Shown here one piece after another: positions 40,447 to 42,542 of a DNA stretch of 64,000 bases. Origin of the DNA: Tissierellia bacterium KA00581 (lineage in GTDB: Bacteria > Bacillota > Clostridia > Tissierellales > Peptoniphilaceae); assembly GCA_001552895.1 (NCBI GenBank), contig KQ959643.1, positions 40,981 to 104,980 of the forward strand, read 5' to 3'. The translations under genes were made by a program, and so were the position numbers. Below the pieces are notes generated by a model. That model did not search any database and was not told the origin of the DNA. It worked only from the letters and a program-made list of their open reading frames with translations. Numbering within the stretch: position 1 is the stretch's first letter; each line of letters starts with the position of its first letter.

Positions 40447-41085
40447 ATGAAAAAGCTAGAATCTATTTTTATTTCTTTTTTAGTTATATTTTCAATTTTG
40501 TTATATTTTATTGATTTTATGGCTTTAGATATATCTTATTATAATAAATTTCATAAAGAAAATAATATTGCAAAAGTTTCAAATCTTTCAGAAAAATATG
40601 TACAAGATGCTTCTGTTTCATTAGTTAGATTTTTAAAAAATGGTAAAGAAGAAGAACTTAAAGAAAATTTTAATAAAAAAGAAATTAGCCATATGAAAGA
40701 TGTTTATAAACTTTTTAGGCTGGATAGAAAATTGTATAAAAGTTTTATTTCTATATCGATAATAGTAATTATATATTGCATGATAAAAAAAGATAGAATG
40801 TTTTTTTACTATCTAAAGAAATATTTTTTGATAGTGTATTTTTCTTTACTTATGTTTTTAGCGATTTGTTCTATGTTTTTTTCAAATAGTTTTATGTATT
40901 TTCATAAAATATTTTTTAAAAATGACCTTTGGCTTTTAGATTATGATACAGATTTTATGATTAGAATTTTACCTGAAAAATTTTTCTTTACATTATTTTT
41001 AAATGTATTAGTTCTATGGTCGATTGTAGTTTTTGTAATTTATATATTTATTAGACTTAAAAAAAGTATAGGAGTTAAGATATGA
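40447..41085 (+). CDS. DUF1461/TIGR01906 integral membrane protein
   Basis: This 212-aa protein has about four membrane segments (near residues 8-28, 102-120, 129-150 and 185-205). A soluble part after the first contains KKEISHMKDVYKLF, and FMYFHKIFFKNDLWLLDYDTDFMIRILPEKFF precedes the last, the pattern of the TIGR01906/DUF1461 family of Bacillota. The function is unknown. I use ATG 40447; the in-frame TTG 40438 lies within yebC and neither has a clear ribosome-binding site, so coupling to yebC is likely. It overlaps lgt by 4 bases. Confidence 0.8.
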   Translation: MKKLESIFISFLVIFSILLYFIDFMALDISYYNKFHKENNIAKVSNLSEKYVQDASVSLVRFLKNGKEEELKENFNKKEISHMKDVYKLFRLDRKLYKSFISISIIVIIYCMIKKDRMFFYYLKKYFLIVYFSLLMFLAICSMFFSNSFMYFHKIFFKNDLWLLDYDTDFMIRILPEKFFFTLFLNVLVLWSIVVFVIYIFIRLKKSIGVKI

Positions 41086-41831
41086 AAGTTAATATAAGTA
41101 GAGTTGCATTTTCAATTTTTGGAATTGATATAATGTGGTATGCAATAATAATTTGTTTTGGAATTTTTATGGGAATGCTTGTAGCAAGTGAAAATTCTCA
41201 TCTTAGAAAAATAAAAAAAGACACCGTTTCAGATTTACTTCTTTATGCATTACCTTTAAGCGTTATAGGAGCTAGAATATATTATGTAATTTTTGAATGG
41301 AAAAGTTATAAAGGAAATTTTCTTTCAATGATAAATATAAGAGAAGGTGGACTTGCTATATATGGAGCTGTTATTACAGCTATCATTGTAGTTTTTTTCT
41401 TTAGCAAATATAAAAAAATTGATTGTAGAGACCTTCTTGATATCTGTGCTCCAGGACTTATCTTAGGTCAAGCAATAGGTAGATGGGGAAATTTTATAAA
41501 TCAAGAAGCACACGGATATGAAACAACATTTCCAATTTCTGTACTAATAGATGGTAAAAGATATCATGCAACCTTTTTATATGAATCAGTTGGAAATTTT
41601 TTGATTTTTCTATTTCTTATGAAATATATTAGAAAATATCAAAAGAAAAAAGGTCAAGTAGTTTTATTATATGCAATACTTTATGGAATAGTTAGGTTTT
41701 TTGTAGAAGGATTAAGAACAGATAGCCTTATGTTTTTAGGGTTTAGAGTATCGCAAATATTATCTTTAGTAGCTGTTATAGTAGGAAGTATAATTTTTGT
41801 TATAAATAGAAAATACGGAAAAAGTATTTAA
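41082..41831 (+). CDS. lgt: Prolipoprotein diacylglyceryl transferase
   Basis: This 249-aa membrane enzyme transfers diacylglycerol from phosphatidylglycerol to the lipobox Cys of prelipoproteins, the first step of lipoprotein maturation. It has REGGLAIYGAVI (about residues 87-98) and the Lgt signature GRWGNFINQEAHG (about 137-149), with VRFFVEGLRTDS near the end. The length is slightly short but complete. The ATG overlaps the stop of the preceding gene. Confidence 0.95.
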   Translation: MKVNISRVAFSIFGIDIMWYAIIICFGIFMGMLVASENSHLRKIKKDTVSDLLLYALPLSVIGARIYYVIFEWKSYKGNFLSMINIREGGLAIYGAVITAIIVVFFFSKYKKIDCRDLLDICAPGLILGQAIGRWGNFINQEAHGYETTFPISVLIDGKRYHATFLYESVGNFLIFLFLMKYIRKYQKKKGQVVLLYAILYGIVRFFVEGLRTDSLMFLGFRVSQILSLVAVIVGSIIFVINRKYGKSI

Positions 41832-41850: not shown

Positions 41851-41878
41851 GGATGCATATATGCATCCTTTTTTTTAT
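41851..41878 (+). terminator. Terminator after lgt
   Basis: The perfect palindrome GGATGCATATATGCATCC is followed by ten T. Confidence 0.9.
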
Positions 41879-41907
41879 AAAAATTTAAAAAAATTAATTA
41901 CATAAAT

Positions 41908-41928
41908 TTACTCCATATTACTCCACTA
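41908..41928 (-). promoter_or_regulatory. Inverted upstream copy of the MraZ-box cluster
   Basis: On the minus strand, AGTGGAGTAATATGGAGTAA (41927-41908) nearly repeats AGTGGTTTAATATGGAGTGA at 42061-42080. It lies about 135 bp from that cluster, upstream of the mraZ promoter. Confidence 0.55.
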
Positions 41929-42013
41929 TTAATAAAATTTTTAATTTTTTTTACAAATTTAAAGAAAAATTTTAAATTTTTATTAAAAAAACTAAAAAAA
42001 ATCTAAAAAAAAC

Positions 42014-42042
42014 TTGAAAAATTTGTTTAAATAGTATAGAAT
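42014..42042 (+). promoter_or_regulatory. Promoter of the dcw (division and cell wall) cluster
   Basis: TTGAAA-17-TAGAAT, followed by the palindrome TATAGATGTATCTATA. The predicted start is near 42049, just before the TGG repeats. Confidence 0.7.
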
Positions 42043-42060
42043 ATAGATGTATCTATATAG

Positions 42061-42087
42061 AGTGGTTTAATATGGAGTGAAATGGAA
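42061..42087 (+). promoter_or_regulatory. MraZ-box cluster (three TGG repeats, 10-bp spacing)
   Basis: TGG occurs at 42063, 42073 and 42083, exactly one helical turn apart, right after the promoter. MraZ is known to bind direct repeats of TGG-type boxes with about 10-bp spacing upstream of its own gene, so autoregulation is likely. Confidence 0.65.
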
Positions 42088-42110
42088 CAAAATTTTAGGA
42101 GGTGATGGCA

Positions 42111-42542
42111 TTGTTTATCGGAGATTATCCACATACATTAGATGACAAAGGTAGGCTTATTATGCCATCAAAGTTTAGAGAAGAACTAGGAAAAAATTTT
42201 GTTGTAACAAGAGGAATGGAAAATTGTCTTTTTGTATTTACTGAAGAAAAATGGATTGAGTTTACAAAAGATTTAGATTCTAAAGGATTAAACCAAAAAG
42301 ATGTTCGTGCTGTAAAAAGATTTTTTTGCAGTAATGCTATGAGTTCTGATTTAGATAAACAAGGTAGATTTTTATTAAATAAAAAACTTCGTGAACATGC
42401 AAATATTCAAAGAGATGTTATGATAATTGGAGTTTCTGATAGAATAGAAATCTGGGCTAAAGAAAAATGGGATGATTATAGCATTGAACAATATAGTGAT
42501 GAAGAAAAAATTGCAGAAAAATTTGATGCAATTAGTTTTTAG
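42111..42542 (+). CDS. mraZ: Transcriptional regulator MraZ
   Basis: This 143-aa protein of two AbrB-like (SpoVT-AbrB) halves has MFIGDYPHTLDDKGRLIMPSKFR at the start and SSDLDKQGRFLLNKKLREHA in the second half; each DxxGR is part of the DNA-binding loop. MraZ oligomers bind repeats upstream and control the dcw operon. The start is TTG 42111, 8 nt after GGAGG (42098-42102), giving the family-typical MFIGDY; the GTG and ATG at 42102 and 42105 overlap that site. Confidence 0.95.
   Translation: MFIGDYPHTLDDKGRLIMPSKFREELGKNFVVTRGMENCLFVFTEEKWIEFTKDLDSKGLNQKDVRAVKRFFCSNAMSSDLDKQGRFLLNKKLREHANIQRDVMIIGVSDRIEIWAKEKWDDYSIEQYSDEEKIAEKFDAISF

Follow-up and report, generated by a model that had tools for sequence, protein, structure and literature searches.

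A candidate auxiliary MraZ operator, inverted and upstream of the mraZ promoter, in a Tissierellia bacterium and some of its relatives

The window analyzed here, a 64,000-nucleotide stretch of DNA from Tissierellia bacterium KA00581, carries mraZ and, downstream of it, genes that we take from their translations to be mraW, an ftsL-like gene, a penicillin-binding protein gene, mraY, murD, an ftsW-like gene and murG. The features around the mraZ start, in window positions, are as follows.

41082..41831, plus strand: lgt, the gene upstream of mraZ and in the same direction (PF01790, 4.1e-72)
41851..41868, plus strand: predicted intrinsic terminator of lgt, GGATGCATATATGCATCC followed by a T run
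41908..41927, minus strand: upstream inverted MraZ-box cluster, AGTGGAGTAATATGGAGTAA, sharing a pattern with 42061-42080
41911..41916, minus strand: outer inverted box, ATGGAG, found in the window's species only (1 of 6 genomes)
41921..41926, minus strand: inner inverted box, GTGGAG, invariant in all 6 genomes of the genus
42014..42042, plus strand: predicted sigma-A promoter of mraZ, TTGAAA-17-TAGAAT (10 of 12 consensus matches)
42062..42085, plus strand: main MraZ operator of three direct boxes, with TGG at 42063-65, 42073-75 and 42083-85
42097..42106, plus strand: ribosome-binding site, AGGAGGTGAT, strong and conserved in the genus alignment
42111..42542, plus strand: mraZ (PF02381, 1.8e-36, two stretches)

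The order is therefore lgt terminator, AT-rich spacer, promoter, three TGG boxes, ribosome-binding site and mraZ, with the inverted cluster placed beyond the terminator. The predicted promoter, which aligns with TTGCAA-17-TAAAAT in five congeners, falls between the two box clusters, in keeping with the initial annotation, which had described clusters flanking the dcw promoter. The mechanically called mraZ ORF starts at a GTG (42102) that overlaps the ribosome-binding site; judging from that site and from homologues, the true start is probably the TTG at 42111. The encoded protein matches the PDB MraZ chains 1n0e (3.5e-21), 9qlr, 9qlg and 9sx6 (the solved MraZ structures being 1n0e, 9qlr, 9qlg/9r4j and 9sx6/9sz7), and the D-x-K-G-R and D-K-Q-G-R columns of the MraZ alignment are invariant, which identifies it as a protein with the MraZ (AbrB-like) domain.

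Taking a main operator to be at least three direct TGG boxes at a 10-bp step beside the mraZ promoter, the window has one, its boxes beginning at 42063, 42073 and 42083 just as first annotated. The inverted cluster proposed upstream is also there, with two boxes and not three: minus-strand TGG (CCA) occurs at 41913-15 and 41923-25, 10 bp apart as in the main operator, whereas each of the five congeners has a single box. The 20-letter pattern AGTGGNNTAATATGGAGTNA, allowing as many as 3 mismatches, is found at two places in the window and no others, 41908-41927 on the minus strand and 42061-42080 on the plus strand (mean expected count 0.19), and RTGGN6RTGG occurs 6 times in the 64 kb, 3 of them at this locus, against a mean expectation of 1.23. 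When the 230-bp spacer was shuffled with dinucleotides preserved, 4 of 20000 trials produced a minus-strand pair and none a TGGAG-TGGAG pair, so that a chance origin of the pair is unlikely. These counts, together with the invariance of the inner box, make it very unlikely that the cluster is a functionless inverted duplication, whether accident or remnant, even though the outer box is present in one species of six, as such an origin would allow.

Conservation was assessed in six genomes of the genus, the window's species (L001) and five others (L002-L006) whose MraZ proteins are 71-73% identical to that of the window. In the alignment of their upstream regions a single invariant island, CTCCAC (GTGGAG on the minus strand), stands out from an AT-rich spacer that otherwise changes fast: of the 41 gapless columns with any G or C in this 156-column spacer, 4 are invariant and all 4 lie inside the island (Fisher p 1e-5, with columns treated as independent). 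The inner box lies 140, 139, 131, 143, 131 and 142 bp from the first main box in L001 to L006, respectively. The outer box is absent from all five congeners; one half of the cluster is thus conserved and the other peculiar to the window's species. The initial annotation had named loss of the upstream copy in all close relatives as an observation that would count against its looping or doubled operator; the outer box is indeed absent from all five and the inner one kept. Because the outer box is missing there, a multi-box site of the usual kind is not conserved in the congeners, and the lone inverted box may bind weakly.

Several other roles for the island were considered and rejected. By eye, a stem around CTCCAC is inconsistent among the six genomes, as opposed to what a hairpin or terminator would require, and a leftward ribosome-binding site would have no suitably spaced start codon in L002 or L004. 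The helical phase signal of the inner-box distance within the genus is weak (Rayleigh p about 0.044) and was set aside as evidence, since it comes from six related genomes, and a constant phase between lineages is ruled out by the varying distances.

The strength of the boxes was compared using a profile whose training set was 671 main boxes, taken from the first 231 loci of the survey described below and including the window's genus; it reads AAAGTGGT-like. By this profile, built largely from genera other than the window's, in which MraZ shares only about 40-55% identity, the inverted box outscores every main box in all six genomes (11.6 to 16.6, versus 8.3 to 13.2 for the best main box). In the genomes of the genus the best main box ranks 6th to 38th from the bottom of 295, and their main operators are thus among the weakest. 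A strong inverted box facing a weak main operator fits an upstream element that would anchor and aid the main operator; MraZ of this genus may also have shifted its box preference. An association of strong inverted with weak main boxes across loci (4/15 versus 5/269, with L003 undercounted; a spurious ORF cut its spacer) is driven mainly by the window's genus and L066, is therefore not independent, and was discarded.

The conserved GTGGAG could instead be the site of another DNA-binding protein, its likeness to an MraZ box being coincidental and the second box of the window's species drift. Such a protein would account for the conservation of one box only within the genus, where an MraZ site is normally a row of boxes. 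We nevertheless consider this explanation unlikely, as inverted pairs at the exact MraZ step recur in other lineages and the window's outer box, AATATGGAGTA, repeats the genus-specific sequence of box 2 in the main operators of L003 and L006. Also in favor of an MraZ site, three-box operators are nearly unique within a genome.

The recurrence of inverted pairs was established in a survey that drew mraZ loci from the window's family, order and class and from 80 named records, in which 322 loci yielded 312 distinct upstream regions after removal of L248, L301, L305, L306 and L307 (no usable MraZ start or upstream stretch) and five duplicates (L159, for example, duplicates L050). A recognizable main operator, defined as a 10-bp TGG pair near the mraZ start, is present in 295 of the 312. 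Counting only between the upstream gene and the main operator, we found minus-strand RTGG pairs at 10 bp in 11 of the 312 loci; any other spacing between 5 and 25 gave 0-3, the direct orientation gave 2, and the reversed motif gave 3 and 2. For inverted GTGG pairs the count is 9 of 312 at the 10-bp step and 0-2 at the other spacings in that range, against 2 for the direct orientation and 1 and 1 for the reversed motif, and a profile pair score of at least 15 is reached on the minus strand in 11 of 217 loci, on the plus strand in 1, and in 0 and 1 of the controls. The enrichment rests on these intergenic counts; in fixed 400-bp windows that include coding sequence, which we rejected as its basis, the signal is weaker, RTGG pairs at the 10-bp step numbering 14 on the minus strand and 12 on the plus strand and those at other spacings reaching 10 and 14, respectively. 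Counts of single boxes over all loci (minus-strand AAGTGG in 21 of 210, plus strand 18, reversed controls 10 and 4) were likewise dropped as uninformative, because the plus strand contains sequence near the main cluster.

The 11 pair-bearing loci are L001 (the window), L066 and L015 (same family), L010, L012, L022, L050, L014, L024 and L025 of the same order, and L205, a named Bacillota MAG contig; L010 (terminator region) and L015 (edge of lgt) are doubtful members, and the copy in L022 is more than 400 bp off. Allowing for kinship, they represent roughly six to eight lineages, among which the inverted-to-main distance differs widely (about 107-590 bp). The remaining 301 of 312 loci have no inverted pair. 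No further intergenic case was found among 60 class-level regions and 30 additional loci, and the feature therefore appears to be concentrated in the window's order. The initial interpretation is thus upheld in part. A doubled operator is supported, in that the inner box is present in six of six genomes and matches the profile better than any main box, and inverted pairs at 10 bp are enriched upstream of mraZ; the outer box is found in one genome of the six. The looping that the initial annotation also suggested is conjectural, the distances varying widely between lineages and the phase signal within the genus being unconvincing.

Two further elements precede mraZ elsewhere in the Tissierellales. 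In genus g31 of the window's family, the two species L018 and L090 share a conserved AA(A/T)GTGGGAAATTGTGTTTG on the minus strand, about 127 bp upstream of their main boxes, a distance similar to that in the window; the element consists of a box and a degenerate second box. Separately, a GGAC-N4-GTCC palindrome, which we take to resemble the mycobacterial DosR box, occurs in 22 of 295 loci (e.g. L007, L017, L048, L049, L105, L110, L111 and L128), compared with 0-2 for the same half-site at other gaps, and in most carriers its distance to the first MraZ box, which follows it, hardly varies (76-81 bp). The palindrome is rare elsewhere in the genomes (a stricter form occurs in 4 of 61), has no match in the six genomes of the window's genus, and is possibly an activator site for the mraZ promoter.

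The orientation of the upstream pairs would be accounted for directly if they were operators of a separate leftward (antisense) promoter, also repressed by MraZ and with its boxes downstream of the start as at mraZ. This is the main competitor in explaining the orientation, and AT-rich TATNNAAT-like stretches can be seen by eye before several inverted pairs (L012, L022, L024). In the window's genus, however, there is no consistent minus-strand -10/-35 before the inverted box and the invariant G/C columns are the box alone; moreover, promoter-like matches in the spacer region are no commoner than in shuffles (5 found versus a mean of 7.6) and none of the 5 is on the minus strand there. A leftward promoter has, in our estimation, a low probability.

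Many Clostridia carry a short Spo0E-like ORF between lgt and mraZ (35 of 312 loci), a position that puts a sporulation phosphatase gene beside the division cluster. In three families, f7 (L012, L022, L050, L089), f12 (L014) and f8 (L024, L025), an inverted copy lies 9-39 bp behind the stop codon of such an ORF, here of 50-60 residues, though one box is mutated in L089, which for that reason is not among the 11 pair-bearing loci. Two of these ORFs were tested and match PF09388 (7.3e-8 and 4.6e-7); the others were recognized with a profile built from five of them. A terminator follows the copy in L012, L022, L050, L089, L024 and L025, and a strict scan detected none in L014. In L205 the order is reversed, the inverted pair preceding the Spo0E-like ORF, and 28 of the 35 ORF-bearing loci have no copy behind it.

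In f7 and f12, the inverted copy equals the locus's own main operator over 16-19 letters, spacers included (with one change in L089). Located in the 3' end of the upstream transcript, such a copy could act as an antisense RNA that pairs with the mraZ 5' leader. In these two families, the sequence that follows the spo0E-like stop is predicted to pair with this leader with energies of -33 to -43 kcal/mol (z -3.2 to -6.3), giving the top 5 of the 34 spo0E-bearing loci examined (all of the 35 but L152, which lacks a main operator), and the single changed base in L089 retains a G-U pair and destroys the TGG box. RNA pairing is accordingly a serious rival in f7 and f12. It is not one in the window's genus, where the window's copy comes after the lgt terminator and pairing in the five congeners is weak (-12 to -19 kcal/mol) despite the invariant GTGGAG; L024, L025 and L205 also have boxes and no long continuous duplex. 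As a general account of the inverted copies, we regard it as highly improbable.

The upstream site itself is well supported, and MraZ is likely to be the protein that binds it. Since the close relatives that were sampled conserve its core and some more distant ones carry similar copies, the element is probably an extra repressor site and not an accident. Our preferred reading, to which we assign an even chance, is that the element serves as an auxiliary inverted operator for MraZ, an oligomer of which probably bridges it and the main operator. MraZ forms a ring-like oligomer, and in the published structures its DNA-binding faces outnumber those that the main operator uses. We infer that MraZ would bind the three weak boxes that lie just beyond the transcription start, together with the stronger inverted box (a pair in the window's species) about 140 bp upstream; because of the spare faces, one oligomer, or two touching, could hold both operators. 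Bridging would raise the occupancy of the weak main operator and shut the promoter inside a small loop, so that the division and cell-wall cluster would be autorepressed more tightly. A preference for inverted orientation is not predicted by simple looping, and a ring that lets DNA follow it in one sense only would favor a there-and-back path.

A broader and rather doubtful proposal is that some Clostridia autoregulate mraZ through two operators placed in opposite orientation on either side of the promoter and bridged by the MraZ ring into a repression loop, that this arrangement arose or was kept in several lineages, and that where the copy lies in a spo0E-like 3' end, control of the sporulation phosphorelay would be linked to control of the division genes. 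MraZ is among the most conserved bacterial regulators. A second, inverted operator would offer a natural and testable substrate for bridging by the MraZ ring, supply a reason for its spare binding faces, and predict which genomes show co-operative repression of the division cluster.

The MraZ profile of our survey agrees with the Mollicutes operator consensus (AAAGTGKN3)3, as quoted in PMC5282649; for the E. coli MraZ boxes we refer to Eraso et al. 2014, as relayed by PMC8475190 and PMC5138195. The main operator of the window is like the known dcw MraZ operator, with its direct TGG boxes at 10-bp steps, in having three boxes and the mraZ promoter adjacent, and the upstream boxes share its core and step; the window differs in the additional inverted cluster on the far side of the promoter, of which we found no description in the openly licensed PMC literature on MraZ operators, boxes, looping and oligomers. 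This arrangement can be set beside better-studied repression loops. LacI and lambda CI use auxiliary operators and loops, in which two operators lie around or away from the promoter and one oligomer binds both. The window resembles these systems in having two operators around a promoter, with bridging by MraZ being our proposal, and differs from them in that its sites are asymmetric rows of boxes, so that their orientation may matter.
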